DNA of 64,000 nucleotides. Source: Streptosporangium saharense. Its GTDB lineage: Bacteria > Actinomycetota > Actinomycetes > Streptosporangiales > Streptosporangiaceae. The stretch lies in NCBI RefSeq assembly GCF_014203715.1, contig NZ_JACHJP010000005.1, positions 434,001 to 498,000 on the forward strand, given 5' to 3'. Both the position numbers and the translations under genes were made by a program. Shown piece by piece: positions 2,491 to 10,738 of this stretch (position 1 is its first letter; each line of letters opens with the position of its first letter). The notes beneath the pieces were generated by a model. That model was given only the letters and a program-made list of their open reading frames with translations, searched no databases and had not been told where the DNA came from.

Positions 2491-3681
2491 TCACCGGCCT
2501 TCCGCGTCCTCGGCCGCCCCCGGCGGCAGGCTCGGCGAGCGGCCGATCCCGGACGCCAGGTCGAGCCCGAGGAAACGGTCGAGGTGCAGGAACGTCTCGA
2601 ACCTGGCGCCCGGCGCCACGGCCTCGTCGCGTTCGAGTGCCCGAAGCAAGCGCAGCGCCGTGGGCGTGTCGAGGTCGTCGTCGAGGGCGTCCTCGATCGC
2701 GGAGACCGGCCCCTCGGGCATCGCGCGGCTGGGCGACTCCGCCCACCCGGCCACCCGCGAACGCCAGCGCCGCAGCGTGGCGTCGGCGACGCGCAGGGTC
2801 TCCCAGGTGAGGTCGAGCCGCCCCCGGTACCGGTGGCCGAGCAGCGCCAGCCGTACGGCCAGCGGATCGAGACCGGCCCCGGTCACCTCCCCGAGCGTGG
2901 GAATCCCCCCCGGGTTCTCGTACGGCTCGCGCCCCTCGAACAGCAGGTGACCGGAGTGCGCCCAGTGGGCGACCACCTCGTGCCCGGTGGCCGCGTCGGA
3001 CTGGGCGCGCTCGTTCTCGTGGTGCGGAAAGCACAGGTCGATCCCGCCCACGTGCAGGTCGATCCGCTCACCGAGGGAGTGGATCGCCATGGCCGAGCAC
3101 CCGATGTGACGGCCGGGAACCCCCCTGCCCCAGGGCGCCCGCCAGGCGGGTTCGTCACGTGCGGGCCGCCACAGCACCCAGTCGGCGGGGTGCCGCTTGG
3201 GCGGATCGGCCTCCCCGGCCGTGGGCCGTAGCTCCTCGGGCCGGTTGCCCGACAGCTCGCCGTAGGAGGGGAAGGAGGCGGCGTCGAAGAGGACGAACCC
3301 CTCGGGGGTCGGATAGGCGTGCCCCCGCTCGATCAGCCTGGCGATCATCTCGACCATCGGGCCGACGGTCTCCGAGACCTCGGGGGAGTGCTCGGGCGGG
3401 TGGATGTTCAGCGCCAGCGTCTCGGCCTTGAAAGCCTCGAACCGACCGGAGCCGTCAGGGGGAAGGTGCCCCAGGTCGGAGAAGCCCAGGCAGACGACGA
3501 CCCGGACGCCCCGCCGCCCCGCGACCCGCCTGACCAGGTCGGTCAGCAGGGCGGTGCGCAGGTCGCCCAGGTGCACGGTGTGCCCGGTGACCGGGCCGCA
3601 GCCGTAGACGCGCATCGACCGGGCGCCCGGGGGGACGATCGGCTCGACGCGGCGGTGTCGCGTGTCATACAGCCGTAGCAT
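2491..3681 (-). CDS. Divergent cysteinyl-tRNA synthetase/MshC-like protein lacking KMSKS
   Basis: A 396-residue class I synthetase-fold protein related to CysRS and to the mycothiol ligase MshC, both of which activate cysteine with ATP. The four CysRS-type zinc ligands appear present: Cys28 in YGCGP, Cys in HIGCSAM, and His and Glu in CFPHHENE. The adenylation motifs are damaged: HIGH is replaced by HLGD, and the KMSKS loop is replaced by the stretch around EPYENPGG just before IPTLGEV. The C-terminus is short, without a full anticodon-binding domain. The gene follows the sigma-4-like gene by 48 bases and is probably co-transcribed with it. It may be a non-canonical aminoacyl-adenylate enzyme, a regulatory paralogue or an inactive copy. 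Fold assignment is firm, function open. Confidence 0.8.
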   Translation of the reverse strand: MLRLYDTRHRRVEPIVPPGARSMRVYGCGPVTGHTVHLGDLRTALLTDLVRRVAGRRGVRVVVCLGFSDLGHLPPDGSGRFEAFKAETLALNIHPPEHSPEVSETVGPMVEMIARLIERGHAYPTPEGFVLFDAASFPSYGELSGNRPEELRPTAGEADPPKRHPADWVLWRPARDEPAWRAPWGRGVPGRHIGCSAMAIHSLGERIDLHVGGIDLCFPHHENERAQSDAATGHEVVAHWAHSGHLLFEGREPYENPGGIPTLGEVTGAGLDPLAVRLALLGHRYRGRLDLTWETLRVADATLRRWRSRVAGWAESPSRAMPEGPVSAIEDALDDDLDTPTALRLLRALERDEAVAPGARFETFLHLDRFLGLDLASGIGRSPSLPPGAAEDAEGR

Positions 3682-3729: not shown

Positions 3730-5577
3730 TCAGACGGCCCCCTCAAGGAGGACGAGGATGTCACGGTCACCCCGGTCGCGCAGGCGGGCGCCGACCTCCT
3801 CCTTCGGGGCGCCGTCGGCCAGGCCGATACGGGCGCCGATGAGGCGGATGCCCTCGGCCTCCGAGGCGACGGGCGCGGTGTAGCCGATCAGGTGCAGGGC
3901 CCGGTTCATCGAGGGCAGGGTCGGCGCCGCCGCGGGCAGGTAGCGGGTCAGCAGCTCACCCCCGTCGGAGACCGTCAGGAAGACGTGGTCGCCCTCGGCG
4001 GCGTTCGCGGCCACCAGGATGGGGCGGATGGAGCCCATGGTCGGCTGGTTGTGCCAGCTCACCACCACGTCGCCGGACGGGGTCGAGGCGGTCAGCTGCC
4101 CACCGGGGGCCATGCCCAGGTAGGCGGCGAAACCGGTCGGCAGCGGGGAGCCCGAGCCGCGCAGGTGCTCGGCGTTGACGTCTACCCGGTGCCACCAGCG
4201 TCCGTCACGGCTGCGGAAGCACCGCCTGGTCGCCGAGACGTCCCTGCGGGGCTGGTAGTCGGCCTGCTCGGAGCCCGCGACCCTGATCCAGCCGCGCTGG
4301 GTGCGCTCGAACCCGGGGCCGCCCGCGTAGGCGCGCACCGAGCTCTCGCTCACGTCGTAGCGCGAGGTCAGGTTCGTCACGATGGTGTTGACCGAGGCCT
4401 CGCCGTTGGCCCGCTCGATCTCCCTGGCGATCATCTCCCTGATGCCGAGATACTCCTCGCCGCCCCACCTGGACAGGCCGTACTTGTTGCGGTCGAGGCG
4501 CAGGAAGCGGTCGTCGGCGGTGAGCTGGTTGCGGATGCCGACGAGGCTGTAGTCCTCGCCGATGCGCTCCTGGATCTCCTCCGGCGTCAGTGCGGTGCCC
4601 GAGACCGCGAGCACCGCCTCGGCCTTGTCGTTGACGCTGCGCGGCCAGGGCACCACGTGCCCGTCGAGCACCCGAAGCTGGGGTACGGCGATGAGCCAGC
4701 GCTCGGCCACGTCCTCGCGGATGCCGAGCTGGCTGACCAGCGAGACCGCCTCCTCAAGGGGGCGCGGCCCGTCGGTGAAAAGCTGCCTGGTCTTCTCCCG
4801 CAGCTCGTCGGCCCCGCCCGCCACGAGCCAGCCGTCCACCTGGTCGTAGCCGGTCAGCAGGGTCCGCACGAACCGCCAGGCCGGGATGCCCAGCGTGGCC
4901 AGGTCACTGCGGTGCCACGGCACCGCGGCCGCCAGGTCGTCGGCGGGTACGGCGGAGCCGAGCCTGCCGCGCAGCCAGGAGACGTGCCCGACCAGCGGGG
5001 CCGCGTCCTCGCTCGTGAGCCAGGCCTCGACGTGGTCGCGCAGGTCACGCTCGATCTGCCTGATGCGCTCCCTGGTCACGGAGAAACGCTGGGCCAGGTC
5101 GTCCAGCGTCGCCCGCTGCGAGGCGTACAGGCGGTCCCTGGCGATGGCCCGCTGCCGCTCGTCCAGGGTCGCGAAGACCTCGTCGATCAGCTCGGGCAGC
5201 GGCCGGTCGGGACGGGCGGGACGCGTCTGGCCGACGCTCTCCTCGGTGACGGGTTCCAGGAGCCGTTCGAGGACCCCGGTGAACATCCGGTGCACCACCT
5301 CGCGTCCCAGGCCCTCCGGCGTCCTGACGCTCGAAGCCGGGTCGGCGAACCTGAGCAGTGGCAGGACGTCGCCGAGCATCAGGTGGCCCCAGCACGTCAG
5401 GGCGAGGTCGGCCAGGCGTCCGGCGACCTCGGACGTCCCGATGGTCGAGCAGGCTCGGTCGAGCGGAAGTGCCTGCCACCACGCCTCGGGAAGACGGGGG
5501 TCGGTTGCGATCGGCGCTACCTGGCCGGGAGAGGTCCAGCGCAGGGGGGGCGCGATGTCGCTCAGGCTGAGGTTCAT
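3730..5577 (-). CDS. Sigma-70 region-4-like HTH protein with winged-helix and shared C-terminal domains
   Basis: A 615-residue protein. Residues 137-187 match region 4.2 of a primary sigma factor, including LDDLAQRFSVTRERIRQIER, the part that reads the -35 element. No region 2 or 3 is visible, so this is not a complete sigma factor. Residues 318-372 look like a HARE-HTH-type winged helix (LTPEEIQERIGEDYSLVGIRNQL), followed by a second possible winged helix at about 380-432. The last 165 residues (CFRSRDGRWWHRVDVNAEHLRG onward) and the first 80 are shared with the protein encoded at 7688-9745. The gene starts 49 bases after the helicase stop. It probably binds DNA or RNA polymerase together with the helicase; that role is inferred from context. 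Confidence 0.85.
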   Translation of the reverse strand: MNLSLSDIAPPLRWTSPGQVAPIATDPRLPEAWWQALPLDRACSTIGTSEVAGRLADLALTCWGHLMLGDVLPLLRFADPASSVRTPEGLGREVVHRMFTGVLERLLEPVTEESVGQTRPARPDRPLPELIDEVFATLDERQRAIARDRLYASQRATLDDLAQRFSVTRERIRQIERDLRDHVEAWLTSEDAAPLVGHVSWLRGRLGSAVPADDLAAAVPWHRSDLATLGIPAWRFVRTLLTGYDQVDGWLVAGGADELREKTRQLFTDGPRPLEEAVSLVSQLGIREDVAERWLIAVPQLRVLDGHVVPWPRSVNDKAEAVLAVSGTALTPEEIQERIGEDYSLVGIRNQLTADDRFLRLDRNKYGLSRWGGEEYLGIREMIAREIERANGEASVNTIVTNLTSRYDVSESSVRAYAGGPGFERTQRGWIRVAGSEQADYQPRRDVSATRRCFRSRDGRWWHRVDVNAEHLRGSGSPLPTGFAAYLGMAPGGQLTASTPSGDVVVSWHNQPTMGSIRPILVAANAAEGDHVFLTVSDGGELLTRYLPAAAPTLPSMNRALHLIGYTAPVASEAEGIRLIGARIGLADGAPKEEVGARLRDRGDRDILVLLEGAV

Positions 5578-5626
5578 TGAGGTCCAACCGGCAAAGGGGA
5601 ATATATCCGCAGTTCAGAGTATGTCG

Positions 5627-7684
5627 TTAGGTCGGGAGAAAGGGGCTCGCTCGTCCGGAGTGGGACACGTAAAGAAGCTCCCTGGCCCGGGTACAGGCGA
5701 CATAGAGCAGGCCACGCTCCCGTTGGAGGTCGTGCGCCCGCGCGGTCGGGTCCTCCTCGGCGGGGGTGAGGGAGTCGGGGGCGGGCACGACACCGTCGGC
5801 CACCCCGATCACGGCGACCCGGCGGAACTCCAGGCCCTTCATGCCGTGCAACGTCGTCACCTTCACCCCCAGCTCGCGCAGGGCGTCGCGGGCGTCGCGC
5901 ACGAGACCCGCCGTCCTGGCGGCCACCCCGATCTCCTGGGGCGGCACGCCCTCCTGAACCCACTGTCCCACCTGTGTGGCCAGACCGGTCAGCTCTTCCT
6001 CCGGTGAATCGTAGGCGCGGACCACCGGGCGTGCCCCGTTGCGCGTCGCGCGGAAGCCGTACAGCTCCTGCACTCCGTCGACCAGACCGTCCGCGGGGCC
6101 GCCGCCGCGCAGCCGTACGCCCCAGGTGAGGATCTCCTGTGGGAGGCGGTACGACACCTGCAGACGCCGTCTGGTCGCGTCGATCCCGACCGAGCCGAGC
6201 GTCACCCGCGTGTCGAAGATCCGCTGGTGCGGATCGCCCACGATGAACAGATCGTCCCGTCCGTACGGCACCGCCGCCCGCAGCAGCCGCCACTGCGCCG
6301 GGTGCAGGTCCTGCGCCTCGTCCACCACGATGTGCCGGTACGGCTCCCGCCTCGGCGCGCTGTCGGCCAGCAGGTCCCCGGTCGTACGGCCGAGCAACTG
6401 GCAGGCCTCGCCCGCGAGCTGGAGAAGGGTGCGCTTGCCGCGCTCCCGCAGCCGCCGGGTGACGTGCTCGACGGCCTTCCACACGTCGGTCCGCTCCTCG
6501 GCGGAGAGCTGGACGCCACGGCCCGTCCTGGGGGCTTCGAGATACTCCTGGAGGGTCCTGAGATTCTGGGCCAGCACGACCTGCTCCCACTCGCGCAGCA
6601 GGAAGGCGGGGCTGTGGGCGCTGTCCGTCTCGCGCCAGAGCGCGTCCACCTCGGCGGCTCCGGCCAGCGCGGGCGCCCTGCCCTCGGCTTCGGCGACGAT
6701 GCGGTGGGCCAGCCGGTCCACGTTGCCGACCTCGACGCGCTTGCGGGTCACCTCGTCCTCGACCAACAGGTCCAGCCGGGAGGCGAGCTCCGCGCTCAGC
6801 CGCTGGGAGAAGGTGACCAGCAGGATCTGCCCCGCGCCGCGCCTGGCCAGGAAGGCGGAGCGGTGCAGGGCCAGCAGGGTCTTGCCCGTCCCGGCGCCTC
6901 CGGTGACCAGGATCGGCTGCTCGTAGAACTCCCAGCGGGCCAGGCGGTGCAGCGCGGGCTGCAGGAACACGCACCAGGCGGGCGCGTCGAGGACGTGGTT
7001 CAGCTCGCGCGGGCTGCCCACGAAGATCGCGCGGTCGGGACTGCGCAGCAGCGCCGCGGTCAGGTCGTCGGGGTCGATGGGACCCGGGGGAGGGGCGGTC
7101 GCCCGGCAGGTCTCCAGCTCCCGCCAGGCCCCGGCCATCGACTCACCCCTGGCGAGCGCGGCCAGCGGGGCGTACTGCGTCGCGGGAAGCAGGGGTTCGA
7201 GGGCGTCGAGGGTCAGCTCGTCGGTGATCTGCCTGACGAGTCCGAGCAGCCCGCGTTCGACCCCCAGCTCGGCCATGTCGGTGTCGCAGGTGTCGGCGAA
7301 CAGCCTGGTTTCGGTCGCCCCGGCCGCCCTGAGCACCGCGGGCTCGATCCGTTCGAGAGCCTCGGCGTCCCACATCTCGACCACGCCGAGCGCCGTGTTG
7401 ACGCCGAAGCGGTGGCGCCGCGCGTAGGCCCACGCCTCCGCCTCCGGCAGGACGGTCAGCAGCCAGTGGACGTCCCGGTGCCTGACCATGACGCCGCGGT
7501 AGCCCTCGGCCAGCCTGAGCGTGACGACCCTGGGGTCCCTGGCCCCCCTGACCCGTTCCGGGTGCGGCGCCCCCGCCACGTTCTGCATGAAGCGGCGTAC
7601 CGCGACGACGGCGTCCCGGCGCGCGGGCTGGGCCAGCGCGCCGAGTTCGGCGGGGAAGTCCGGGGAGATCGCGAGTCGGGGCAT
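5627..7684 (-). CDS. SF1 UvrD/Rep-like DNA helicase with RelE-like N-terminal domain
   Basis: A 685-residue helicase. Residues 1-105 resemble the RelE/ParE toxin fold found at the front of some UvrD-like helicases (PDFPAELGALAQPAR, then LRLAEGYRGVMVRHRD and the AEAWAYARRHRFGVN strand). The ATPase motifs are intact: Walker A GGAGTGKT at 262-269, Walker B VVDEAQDL at 453-460, GDPHQRIF, LHGMKGLEF and LLYVACTRARE near the C-terminus. It should therefore translocate on DNA using ATP. The ATG is three bases after the stop of the gene at 7688-9745, so translation is probably coupled, and its stop is 49 bases before the next gene. Repair, transcription-conflict resolution and phage defence are all possible. 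Confidence 0.9.
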   Translation of the reverse strand: MPRLAISPDFPAELGALAQPARRDAVVAVRRFMQNVAGAPHPERVRGARDPRVVTLRLAEGYRGVMVRHRDVHWLLTVLPEAEAWAYARRHRFGVNTALGVVEMWDAEALERIEPAVLRAAGATETRLFADTCDTDMAELGVERGLLGLVRQITDELTLDALEPLLPATQYAPLAALARGESMAGAWRELETCRATAPPPGPIDPDDLTAALLRSPDRAIFVGSPRELNHVLDAPAWCVFLQPALHRLARWEFYEQPILVTGGAGTGKTLLALHRSAFLARRGAGQILLVTFSQRLSAELASRLDLLVEDEVTRKRVEVGNVDRLAHRIVAEAEGRAPALAGAAEVDALWRETDSAHSPAFLLREWEQVVLAQNLRTLQEYLEAPRTGRGVQLSAEERTDVWKAVEHVTRRLRERGKRTLLQLAGEACQLLGRTTGDLLADSAPRREPYRHIVVDEAQDLHPAQWRLLRAAVPYGRDDLFIVGDPHQRIFDTRVTLGSVGIDATRRRLQVSYRLPQEILTWGVRLRGGGPADGLVDGVQELYGFRATRNGARPVVRAYDSPEEELTGLATQVGQWVQEGVPPQEIGVAARTAGLVRDARDALRELGVKVTTLHGMKGLEFRRVAVIGVADGVVPAPDSLTPAEEDPTARAHDLQRERGLLYVACTRARELLYVSHSGRASPFLPT

Positions 7685-7687
7685 GGG

Positions 7688-9745
7688 CTAGGCCAGCAGG
7701 GACAGCAGGTCGCGGTCCCCGCGTTCTCGCAGCCGGGCGAGCAGGTCGGGAAGGCCGACCTGCCCGGTCATGCCGACCCGGGTGGCGATGACCCTGGCCG
7801 CCTGCTCCGCCGTACCTCCCGGGGCCGTGTAGCCGACCAGCCGCAGCGCCCGCGCGACCGGCTCGGTGTCACCACCGGCCGCGGGCAGGTGCCTGGCCCG
7901 CAGGACCCCCTCGTCGGACAGCGTCACGAACAGGTGGGCGCCCGCCTTCGCCCCCGCGTCCTCAAGCAGGGTCCTGAGCGATTCGAGGACGGGACGCTCC
8001 TGCCAGCTCAGGCCGAGCTCACCGACCGCGCTCTGCACCCTGCGGGCCGCCCCCGGCGACAGGCCGAGATAGGCGGCGAACCCGCTGGGCAACGGACATT
8101 CGCCGCCCCGGAGGTGCTCGGCGGTGACGTCGATCCTGAGCCACCAGCGGCCGTCGGGCTGCCGGAAACAACGCCAGGTCAGCGAGACGTCCTTCAGCGG
8201 GCGGAACGGCCCCTCCTTGCGCTCCTCGTCCTCGGGAGCCGAGGGCGGCGCCTGCTGGGGAGGGCGTTGCCCGGCGCCGAGGATGCGCAGCTGCGGCACG
8301 CCCGCGAGCCACTCCTTGGCCATGTCGTGGTGGATGCCCAGGGAGGCGACCAGGTCGAGGGCCTTGGACATGGTCAGCGGGGGCTTGGCGCCGCTGATCA
8401 CGTCGCGGGTGCGGTGGCGCAACTCGGTGATGTCGCCCTCGACGATCCAGTCCTCGGCCAGCCGGTGGTCGGGGAGGGTCGCCAGCACGAACTGCCAGGC
8501 GGGCACGTCGAGGGAGCGCAGCTCACGGGCGTGCCAGGGCACGACCGTCGCCAGCCGTGCCTTGGGCGCGGCCTTACCGAGCGCCTTGCCGACCTCGACC
8601 AGATGGTCCCGGTACGGCGCCGCCTCCTCGGAGGCGAGCCACTCGCCGAGCCTGTGCCGCAGGGCGGTCTCGGCCTCGTCGATGACCTCGGGCTGCACCG
8701 CGAAGAGCTTGGACAGGGCCTCGACGGTCGCGGGCGCGTCGGTGAACACCCGGTTCTGCGCGACGGCCCAGCTCCTGTCGTCGAGGTTGGCGAAGGCGCC
8801 GTCGAGCAGCGTGTAGAGATCGTCCTGCCGGGGAGGCGGCTGCTCCTCCGCGACGGGCTCGGGGGTCTCCTCGGCCTTCTCCGGCTCGTTCTCGGGTTCC
8901 GGTTCCGGCTCTGCTTCGGGCTCGGGCTCTGGCTTTATGGCGGTCATCGGCTCGAAGAGGCCGCGCTCGGGGAGGGAGCCCTCCTGCTTCTCCTGGGGCG
9001 GAGGCTCGGGGGCCCTGACCGGAGGGGACGGCTTACGCCGCGGCAGCGGGATCGGCTCGGGCTCCGGCGGAGCGGGGGGAGCCGCGGCCTGCACGGCCGC
9101 CACGGGTTCCACGGCCTTCGCGGGTTCCTCAGCGGCCTCCTCGGCCTCGGGGCTCTCGGAGGCGGCCTCCGGAGTCTCGGGGGCCTCGGGCGCGGTCTCG
9201 GGAGCCTCAGGCTCATCCTCGGGTACGGCCCCAGCCTCGGCCTCGGGAGCCTCCTCGGCCTGGGCGGGTTCCTCCGGGGCGTTCTCGGTGGCCGGGGCGT
9301 CCTTGGCGGTGCTTCCGGAGGTGCGGACCGGGGTGACGTCCGGGTTGGCCAGGCGGGTGAGGACCGCGCCGAACAGCGCGTTCAGCACGGGAAGCGGCTG
9401 GATGAAGGGCTGCTCGCGCAGCTCGTGGCCGGTCAGGGCCAGCAGCCCCGCCCACGAACCCGCCCGGTCGAGGGCGATTGCCGTACACGGCTCGTCGGCG
9501 TCCTCAGGGTCCAGCACGTACAGGGCGGGCAGGACGTCGCCGACGGCGGCGGCCGGCCAGTGGTCGAGGGTGATCCCGGCGAGGATCCCGGCGAGCCGCT
9601 CCGGGCCGAGCACGGCCAGCACGCGGGAGACGGGCAGGCTGCGCCACCACGCGCCGGGCAGCTCAGGCTGGTCACGCAGGAGTGGGATCGTCGCCGCGTC
9701 GCTCCAGCGGAGCGGCGGCACGAGGTCACTCAGACAGAAGTTCAT
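7688..9745 (-). CDS. Second sigma-4-like HTH protein with acidic Pro/Glu linker
   Basis: A 685-residue paralogue of the protein at 3730-5577. Both start with the MN-x-x-LSD-x-x-PPLRW motif and end with the CFRQPDGRWWLRIDVTAEHLRG domain, finishing on RERGDRDLL. Between them is a low-complexity linker of roughly 180 residues rich in Pro, Glu and Ala (about residues 145-325). After it, VEALSKLFAVQPEVIDEAETAL aligns with the sigma region-4 helix-turn-helix of the paralogue but has lost the RERIRQIE recognition helix. The HARE-like winged helix is missing. AAGGGAA precedes the ATG by four bases. It is the first gene of the helicase operon. The product may have kept the interaction domains and lost direct promoter recognition. 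Confidence 0.82.
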   Translation of the reverse strand: MNFCLSDLVPPLRWSDAATIPLLRDQPELPGAWWRSLPVSRVLAVLGPERLAGILAGITLDHWPAAAVGDVLPALYVLDPEDADEPCTAIALDRAGSWAGLLALTGHELREQPFIQPLPVLNALFGAVLTRLANPDVTPVRTSGSTAKDAPATENAPEEPAQAEEAPEAEAGAVPEDEPEAPETAPEAPETPEAASESPEAEEAAEEPAKAVEPVAAVQAAAPPAPPEPEPIPLPRRKPSPPVRAPEPPPQEKQEGSLPERGLFEPMTAIKPEPEPEAEPEPEPENEPEKAEETPEPVAEEQPPPRQDDLYTLLDGAFANLDDRSWAVAQNRVFTDAPATVEALSKLFAVQPEVIDEAETALRHRLGEWLASEEAAPYRDHLVEVGKALGKAAPKARLATVVPWHARELRSLDVPAWQFVLATLPDHRLAEDWIVEGDITELRHRTRDVISGAKPPLTMSKALDLVASLGIHHDMAKEWLAGVPQLRILGAGQRPPQQAPPSAPEDEERKEGPFRPLKDVSLTWRCFRQPDGRWWLRIDVTAEHLRGGECPLPSGFAAYLGLSPGAARRVQSAVGELGLSWQERPVLESLRTLLEDAGAKAGAHLFVTLSDEGVLRARHLPAAGGDTEPVARALRLVGYTAPGGTAEQAARVIATRVGMTGQVGLPDLLARLRERGDRDLLSLLA

Positions 9746-9814: not shown

Positions 9815-9828
9815 CAGACCATAGTCTG
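9815..9828. promoter_or_regulatory. Perfect 14-bp inverted repeat upstream of the helicase operon
   Basis: CAGAC-CATA-GTCTG lies 70 bases upstream of the ATG at 9745, in the 111-base divergent-free gap before the methyltransferase gene. Position and symmetry fit an operator, but no known consensus was recognised. Confidence 0.35.
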
Positions 9829-9856
9829 GCAAATCACCCCAGCGCATCGGGTCCGG

Positions 9857-10609
9857 TCAGCGTCGTACCGCGGCGAAGCGAAGCCGCACGTAGTCGGCCA
9901 TCCAGCCGCTCTCCCGCCGCAGGGCGGGAGCGGCCAGTTCGTTCACCCGGCGCAGCAGGGATTCGACAAGTTCCACGGGCTTTCCCTGGATCAGCGAACC
10001 GGCGAACATGCGCACCCAGTCGGCGGCCCCACCTGGGCACTCGTCGAGCGGGGTCGGCCGGTCGAAGTACTCAAGGAGGCGGACCGTGAAGCCCCCCTTC
10101 TCCAGCCGCGTGGCGTACTCGGCCGGACTGGGGAAGTACCAAGGAAGATCGGGTTCCGGGAGCCCGTGGTCCCGCCAGGCGGTGGACAGCGCCGCCGTCA
10201 GCGCGGCGCAGTTGCCCGCGCCGCCCATCTCGGCGACGAACCGCCCGCCCGGCGTCAGCGCCTGCCGTACGCTGGCGATCACCGCGTCAGGCTCCCGCCC
10301 CATCCAGTGCAGGGCCGCGTTGGAGAAGACCGCGTCGTACGGCTCGGCGACCGTGAAGTCGCTTCCGTCCCCCACGATGAACTCAAGCCCCGGGTGCAGG
10401 GAGAGCGCCTTCTCGATCATCGCGGAGGAGCCGTCGATGCCCAGCACCCGAGCGCCCCGTGAACCGATCTCGGCGGTGAGCGTCCCGGTGCCGCAGCCGA
10501 GGTCGACGACACGCTCCCCCGGCTGGGGATCGAGCAGGTCAACCAGGGGAGCCCCGTGGGCGGAGACGTATCCGAAGCTGCTGTCGTAGGCGCGAGCGTT
10601 CCACCTCAT
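9857..10609 (-). CDS. Class I SAM-dependent methyltransferase (trans-aconitate methyltransferase-like)
   Basis: A 250-residue protein with the Rossmann-type methyltransferase core: motif I VVDLGCGTGTLTAEIG near residue 34, the acidic residue after strand 2 in VLGIDGS, and YDAVFSNAALHWM as motif IV. The HWM after the fourth strand and the GGRFVAEMGG motif are typical of the Tam-like branch, which methylates small carboxylic acids, but the substrate is not readable. The ATG at 10609 was preferred to a TTG eight codons upstream; neither has a strong ribosome site. It lies between the helicase operon and a solute-binding lipoprotein on the same strand, with gaps of 111 and 129 bases, so it is probably a separate unit. 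Confidence 0.87.
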   Translation of the reverse strand: MRWNARAYDSSFGYVSAHGAPLVDLLDPQPGERVVDLGCGTGTLTAEIGSRGARVLGIDGSSAMIEKALSLHPGLEFIVGDGSDFTVAEPYDAVFSNAALHWMGREPDAVIASVRQALTPGGRFVAEMGGAGNCAALTAALSTAWRDHGLPEPDLPWYFPSPAEYATRLEKGGFTVRLLEYFDRPTPLDECPGGAADWVRMFAGSLIQGKPVELVESLLRRVNELAAPALRRESGWMADYVRLRFAAVRR

Positions 10610-10738
10610 CTGGCCCGGGGTGTCGTATCGCAAGACGATCAGCTCACATTCCGAGACGCCACGGCCTCTTATCGGTCCTCTCCAGACACTTTAGAGCCTC
10701 AAAGATGTCCCGACATATCAGTCGCATCAGCCTCCGGC

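Follow-up and report, generated by a model that had tools for sequence, protein, structure and literature searches.

A conserved operon of Streptosporangiaceae joins an ArmD-like helicase to two paralogous predicted DNA readers: a candidate defence-derived surveillance unit

We studied a 64,000-nucleotide stretch of the Streptosporangium saharense genome (contig NZ_JACHJP010000005.1, positions 434,001 to 498,000; hereafter the window), in which three minus-strand genes at 9745-3730 follow one another in the order P0001, P0002 and P0003, separated by 3 and 49 bases, exactly as a preliminary description of this DNA had given them. P0002 is an ArmD-like helicase with a predicted RelE-like front end, P0003 a predicted multi-domain DNA reader and P0001 a degenerate paralogue of P0003. 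We interpret the trio, giving this reading about an even chance, as a vertically inherited, defence-derived DNA-surveillance unit in which P0003 would be the reader, P0001 the tether and P0002 the motor.

The three genes were colinear in all 77 complete named loci, which argues that their arrangement is not due to chance. The sample was not drawn at random: it consists of the 80 relatives, out of 163, that matched the P0003 C-domain best, less three truncated at the end of a contig (L129, L132 and L151). The 77 loci belong to Streptosporangium and Planomonospora, which gave the best matches among the named records, and to Planobispora, Acrocarpospora, Microtetraspora, Herbidospora, Nonomuraea, Microbispora, Sphaerisporangium, Sinosporangium, Planotetraspora, Spongiactinospora and Thermocatellispora, all Streptosporangiaceae. 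In a separate set of 80 related genomes, a P0003 orthologue (called above 1000 bits) was found in 27, with a helicase orthologue adjacent in 26 of them. The pairwise distances of the three proteins were correlated (r 0.83-0.88). The preliminary description had taken the three genes for one unit, and both samples agree with it: the genes were not found scattered in relatives, G048 being the only genome that has lost most of the trio. The trio occupies a syntenic chromosomal site that is not a defence island, with the same methyltransferase gene beside it in 71 of the 80 named loci; the preliminary description had asked whether such trios sit in defence islands, and the neighbours of this one speak against it. 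A mobile or patchy defence cassette was rejected in view of the 77 colinear loci and the syntenic neighbours. No match to P0003 (E 1e-5) or P0002 (E 1e-10) was obtained in phage records, and no relative was found in viral contigs. More broadly, the reader C-domain was present in at least 6 of 396 genomes of a phylum sample (own genome included; 8 candidates scored per genome) and in 199 of 297 genomes of the family. P0002 was matched at E 1e-175 in 90 of these 297, a count that omits genus g4, where the match is split in G018, and includes three genomes (G521, G545 and G565; about 50% identical) with one reader copy each, which were not counted as trios.

P0003 carries a single recognizable sigma-70 element. 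The Pfam model Sigma70_r4 scored 30.3 bits on residues 135-178 (cut-off 24.1), and in Foldseek this part matched region 4 of SigA (e.g., 6onu_H) with a probability of 1.00 and E 0.25. No other sigma region, region 2 included, was matched in P0003 or P0001 by Pfam up to E 1. With region 4 alone, P0003 was rejected as a sigma factor, and neither protein is a complete one, as the preliminary description had maintained for both flanking proteins. The recognition helix VTRERIRQIE, a string shared with mycobacterial SigA, was invariant in 78 of 78 sequences, the window included, and this alignment indicates that selection acts on it. An alignment of members with the complete architecture, together with the AlphaFold2 model (mean predicted local distance difference test 82.8; predicted template modelling score 0.38), gave the order N-domain, sigma region 4, residues 190-310, residues 311-434 and C-terminal barrel, with the mutual placement of the domains not defined by the model. 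Residues 190-310 are read as two winged helices from their predicted helix and strand pattern; residues 311-434 would form two more, and there a HARE-HTH match fell below the Pfam cut-off (E 0.01) and the model had low confidence at 343-350 and 355-377. The best-conserved part was residues 311-545, with 88-90% identity to the query. The barrel matched the B3 domain of VAL1, other B3 domains and the LlaJI.R1 N-domain in Foldseek (probability 1.00, template modelling score by target 0.48-0.58, E 0.02-0.06, and 0.02-0.04 for VAL1 and LlaJI.R1), so that the modelled C-domain appears to have a B3 pseudobarrel fold; PDB profile searches with the C-domain and the N-domain gave nothing useful, and no published function of this shared C-terminal domain was found in our searches of the open-access literature. 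By E value, P0003 had its best Foldseek matches (4e-4) in a UFL1-DDRGK1 chimera, two chains of which were listed and which we take to be tandem winged helices. With its sigma-4 head, winged helices and B3-like barrel, P0003 would read promoter-like DNA in which a -35-type element lies beside a B3 site.

P0001 shares its ends with P0003, as had been described before: the proteins were 43% identical over 80 aa at the N-terminus, 36% in the middle and 47% over 175 aa at the C-terminus (E 5e-47). No Pfam model matched P0001 up to E 1, and a weak match to the NCBIfam RpoH model (E 0.006, residues 306-360) fell at the place matching sigma-4, in line with the earlier pairing of one intact with one degenerate region 4. 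At the position of the recognition helix (VQPEVIDEAE in the window) the 78 aligned rows showed 39 or more distinct strings, and the two winged helices of P0003 311-434 were absent. Among 76 sequences, that of the window being one (L131 and L178, cut by contig ends, left out), the low-complexity linker was between 30 and 682 aa long, with medians of 23% D/E and 4% K/R and a net charge of median -26, ranging from -98 to +3. P0001, without a reading head and these two winged helices, would tether or restrain the P0002/P0003 pair through its long linker.

Upstream of P0001 we found a conserved 19-bp element, TTTGCCAGACTATGGTCTG in the window, which contains the inverted repeat CAGAC-N4-GTCTG. Of 74 named upstream regions, 72 carried it with up to 4 mismatches and 67 with at most one, against 6 mismatches in the closest of 73 control stretches. 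Three of the 77 loci (L131, L141 and L178) had too little upstream DNA to be counted, and in both failures (L123 and L140) the P0001 start is uncertain. All 11 further trio loci checked outside the named records carried the element at 0-4 mismatches, and it was not found in L057 or L059, both of which are without the full trio. The repeat AGAC-N4-GTCT was complete in 45 of the 74 regions, and one half-site base differs in many Nonomuraea. With 3 mismatches allowed, the element had a single match in the own 8.5-Mb genome, and a wide regulon was rejected on this result. Its likeliest binder would be a regulator dedicated to this operon, P0003 or P0001 being the simplest candidates, and the operon would then most likely regulate itself through this site. 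That the readers are ordinary transcription regulators of distant genes, lying beside an unrelated helicase, would suit a P0003 built of DNA-binding-type domains; we consider it improbable, given the single conserved site in the genome, the strict three-gene linkage and the correlated distances.

The motor part of P0002 was matched by the Pfam models UvrD-helicase (3e-23) and UvrD_C (5e-13), its motif residues were conserved in orthologues, and its fold was UvrD-like, with HelD among the fold matches; the best PADLOC match was GajB (1.9e-29). The UvrD-like helicase of the preliminary description is thus supported by both Pfam and fold. The RelE-like front end that it also proposed had no Pfam match and is predicted from an alignment with related helicases, from the published description of ArmD and from the order of strands (E) and helices (H) in the model: E3-6, H9-15, H21-34, E53-59, E62-69, E72-80, H81-90 and E91-95. 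Arginines conserved in the sequence alignment of this domain are R49, R52, R57 and R63. In the five Nonomuraea proteins printed (L144, L154, L163, L173 and L179), about 72 residues corresponding to 343-414 of the window protein were absent, and the adjacent helicase match in G018 was split by a similar gap.

A RelE domain acting as an RNase held in check by P0001 and P0003, which would repress the operon at the inverted repeat, would make the trio a toxin-antitoxin-like module. A reader gene does precede the RelE gene, the inverted repeat is operon-specific and the modelled strand and helix order is RelE-like; against these points stand the fusion of the domain to a large motor with conserved motifs and the retention in G048 of a reader with only a helicase remnant, and we regard such a module as very unlikely. 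We think equally little of an RNA polymerase recycling unit of the HelD/delta kind. Delta combines a HARE-like winged helix with an acidic tail, and the trio offers a weak HARE-HTH match in P0003, a mostly acidic linker in P0001 and a UvrD-like ATPase matched by the HelR and HelD models. However, these NCBIfam models scored 59 bits (HelR, cut-off 750) and 54.7 bits (HelD, cut-off 419), far below their cut-offs and with the best stretches in the motor, P0002 shares with HelD and HelR the motor fold but begins with a RelE-like domain, and the net charge of the linker reaches +3 in orthologues.

The related genomes searched also had helicases akin to P0002 (37-52% identity) at other sites. Among the 17 of these loci that were fetched, none had a called reader gene, and 10 carried at least one gene clustering with a DrmA, DrmB, DrmMI, McrB-like, DUF262, N6-methylase or giant DEAD-helicase gene. 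PADLOC supported one representative each of DrmA, DrmB, HEC-05 (the DUF262 protein), DrmMI and a REase_II match, and the rest were assigned by eye; in the remaining 7 loci no such gene was recognized, and the helicase of L073 was itself missing from the gene calls. Genes for a DEAD helicase, an N6-methylase, a hypothetical protein and a DEAD helicase of 2133 aa precede the helicase relative of a Haematobacter plasmid; judged by annotation only, this appears to be the ARMADA II order plus one gene. ArmD of the anti-phage system ARMADA type II is described in PMC12458937 as a RelE-like domain with a GajB-like UvrD motor whose Walker residues are K266 and D454; P0002 shares this architecture, with K268 and D455.

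P0003 in turn belongs to an as yet unnamed protein family whose members combine the N-domain, in some cases an alpha-CTD, sigma region 4, winged helices and a B3-like barrel. Among nine homologues scanned, RNA_pol_A_CTD and Sigma70_r4 were both above the Pfam cut-off in L102, L088 and L015, and sigma-4 alone in L089 (with a sub-threshold alpha-CTD) and L104; neither was above it in L105, L106, L091 and L061. An alpha-CTD was rejected as the identity of the P0003 N-domain (profile comparison probability 9%). By eye it corresponds to the region preceding the alpha-CTD in other members, so that the alpha-CTD may have been lost from the trio reader.

In L102, L088 and L015 the reader gene lies directly upstream of genes for a PLD-SF2 helicase (pbeA-type) and an SMC-like ATPase, beside dnd genes, in phosphorothioation islands. 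PADLOC names the two downstream proteins of L102 PbeA and PbeC; the NCBIfam model dnd_restrict_1 scored 541 and 543 bits on the helicases of L102 and L015 (cut-off 600), and the pbeA-type assignment in L088 is by resemblance. Other NCBIfam matches were DndA, DndB, DndC and dnd_assoc_4 in L102, and DndA and dnd_rel_methyl in L015. These three loci were found through the reader and are not an unbiased count of Pbe islands; within this scope the reader family is a candidate overlooked component of Dnd/Pbe-type islands. PADLOC searches of four reader homologues gave weak MzaA matches in all four, one weak PglW match and no other model. Further homologues sit on Microbacterium and Mycolicibacterium plasmids. 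Those of the Mycolicibacterium plasmids (L090 and L092) adjoin DUF2637, ParB and ParA genes, which suggests a role in plasmid maintenance. An annotated UvrD-domain gene lies near L089, and P0002 gave no match to it at E 1e-4.

A tree of the shared domains (32 sequences) separated the chromosomal copies of Streptosporangiaceae from the others, L015 included, with support 100. The chromosomal copies formed three groups: P0003; P0001 plus an orphan; and solitary together with suf-linked copies. The order of the groups had a support of only 58, and the tree was rooted arbitrarily. L061-L067, from seven other genera of the family, are solitary paralogues of the P0001/P0003 type, each beside what by eye is a suf operon, and the sigma-4 reading helix was not kept in the three suf-linked copies aligned. 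Another solitary paralogue, of 553-568 aa with a truncated C-domain (L016, L085 and L086), adjoined genes that by eye resemble a PfkB-type kinase and a pseudouridine-5'-phosphate glycosidase.

None of the named systems compared accounts for the trio. ARMADA type II, whose ArmD has the architecture of P0002, differs in that ArmA, ArmB and ArmC were not recognized beside P0002, which has two readers instead, at a syntenic chromosomal locus. DrmA and DrmB of DISARM, which adjoin paralogous helicases elsewhere, were not among the called neighbours of the trio, and the GajA nuclease gene of Gabija is not adjacent to P0002, the readers flanking it instead. Pbe and CxC-ATPase-DndE systems are approached through the P0003 homologues (alpha-CTD, sigma-4, winged helices and C-domain) upstream of pbeA-type genes at the three loci above, whereas PbeA, PbeC and Dnd genes were not recognized among the called trio neighbours; the accessible parts of the Pbe and CxC descriptions contain no such reader (PMC6459918, PMC10853773), though the latter source does note that an HTH related to sigma factors is inserted in the DndH of some gammaproteobacteria. 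The sigma-region-4 stretch of MzaA matched P0003 over about 50 residues (36 bits, cut-off 800), and other MZA genes were not recognized at the trio locus. According to the accessible text of PMC12839542, three winged helices come after an alpha-CTD-like domain in PglW of BREX, and BrxL has a SIGMA-HTH-like domain; both are precedents for such modules in defence proteins, and they differ from the trio in having other domains (kinase, AAA+, OB fold) and other genes, with no B3-like domain mentioned in that text. With partner genes not recognized nearby, or scores below cut-off, ARMADA, DISARM, Pbe, Gabija and MZA proper were rejected as names for the trio. No named system with this three-gene layout was found in our searches of the open-access literature, as the preliminary description had supposed, although the helicase type itself has been published as ArmD (PMC12458937).

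Table 1 Features of the trio locus and of one reader homologue (minus strand throughout the window)
Feature	Position	Strand	Description
P0001	7688..9745	-	685 aa; degenerate P0003 paralogue: N-domain, linker, degenerate sigma-4 HTH, middle region, B3-like C-domain
Low-complexity linker of P0001	8825..9349	-	Residues 133-307; variable, mostly acidic
Degenerate sigma-4 recognition-helix position of P0001, VQPEVIDEAE	8669..8698	-	Hypervariable among orthologues
B3-like C-domain of P0001	7886..8200	-	47% identity to P0003 C-terminus; fold assigned via P0003
P0002	5627..7684	-	685 aa; ArmD-like helicase: predicted RelE-like N-domain and UvrD-type motor
RelE-like N-domain of P0002 (predicted)	7385..7684	-	Residues 1-100; alignment with related helicases, model element order
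UvrD-type motor of P0002	5654..6931	-	Residues 252-677; Walker A K268, Walker B D455
P0003	3730..5577	-	615 aa; multi-domain DNA reader (predicted)
Sigma-70 region 4 domain of P0003	5044..5175	-	Residues 135-178; Pfam 3e-7, above cut-off; Foldseek SigA region 4
Recognition helix of P0003, VTRERIRQIE	5050..5079	-	Residues 167-176; invariant
Two winged-helix domains of P0003 (predicted)	4276..4647	-	Residues 311-434; helix/strand pattern; weak HARE-HTH match
B3-like barrel of P0003 (predicted)	3937..4245	-	Residues 445-547; Foldseek
19-bp conserved cis element TTTGCCAGACTATGGTCTG	9815..9833	-	70-88 bases before P0001 start codon
Flanking methyltransferase	9857..10633	-	Pfam Methyltransf_25; syntenic upstream neighbour
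L015	G000:C4:555000-572000 (own genome)		Reader homologue in Dnd/Pbe-type island

The called neighbours of the trio are the small methyltransferase, which is probably not part of the system, a solute-binding protein and, downstream, a short cysteinyl-tRNA-synthetase-like gene (window 2491-3681; 396 aa, Pfam tRNA-synt_1e), whose relative in L049 has the opposite orientation.

What most favours a defence role is the presence in defence loci of relatives of the helicase and of the reader proteins alike; this much of the anti-phage function proposed in the preliminary description can be kept for the parts, the trio's own locus being syntenic and chromosomal. Several observations weigh against a defence-derived surveillance unit. 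Defence genes are usually patchier and faster-evolving, and the trio locus is not a defence island; the median identity of P0003 to the window (80%, n=80) is close to that of the neighbouring methyltransferase (81%, n=71). In the own genome and in G004 we found one DUF1998 match each, in an open reading frame of about 860 aa that in the own genome lies away from the trio, so a second YprA-type partner (ArmC or DrmAB) was not seen in either. The Foldseek E values of the B3 and sigma-4 matches are 0.02-0.3, and only the UFL1-DDRGK1 chimera chains fall below 0.001. G048 keeps P0003 with a helicase match limited to the last 98 residues, which means that P0003 may act alone; at this locus (L057), where neither P0001 nor the cis element was detected and the helicase is a C-terminal remnant, the trio has undergone natural decay. 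The strongest point is the modest, correlated and syntenic divergence, which suits a housekeeping role equally well. Under such a role, in conflict resolution or transcription-coupled repair, P0003 would engage promoters or RNA polymerase by means of its sigma-4 domain and P0002 would clear stalled polymerase or open damaged transcribed DNA. Besides the pattern of inheritance, the identity of the P0003 sigma-4 helix to that of SigA and the UvrD-family fold of P0002, with HelD among its matches, are consistent with this, and the 10 of 17 paralogous-helicase loci with DISARM, McrBC, DUF262 or methylase-type cluster genes speak against it; we consider it a rather unlikely alternative.

In the defence-derived surveillance unit that we prefer, P0002 as an ArmD-type motor would be loaded at P0003 sites and would translocate, stripping or unwinding what it meets. 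This would involve a physical complex, specific DNA targets, autoregulation and translocation on invader DNA or on promoter-bound RNA polymerase. Taken to its furthest, the proposal would have P0003 sense promoter architecture, through a head resembling that of the primary sigma factor together with a B3 site, and send the ArmD-type translocase to unlicensed promoters on DNA entering from phages or plasmids, or to RNA polymerase trapped at promoters, with the reader an overlooked Pbe component and a defence-type system now fixed as a core operon; in this full form we consider it unlikely.

The operon joins the ArmD helicase type and the reader seen upstream of pbeA-type genes in one unit across many genera of a single family. 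Because they are joined in this family-wide operon, each part can be studied outside the complex system that it comes from, and the trio makes it possible to ask directly whether a helicase can be guided to promoters by a reading head of the sigma-region-4 type.

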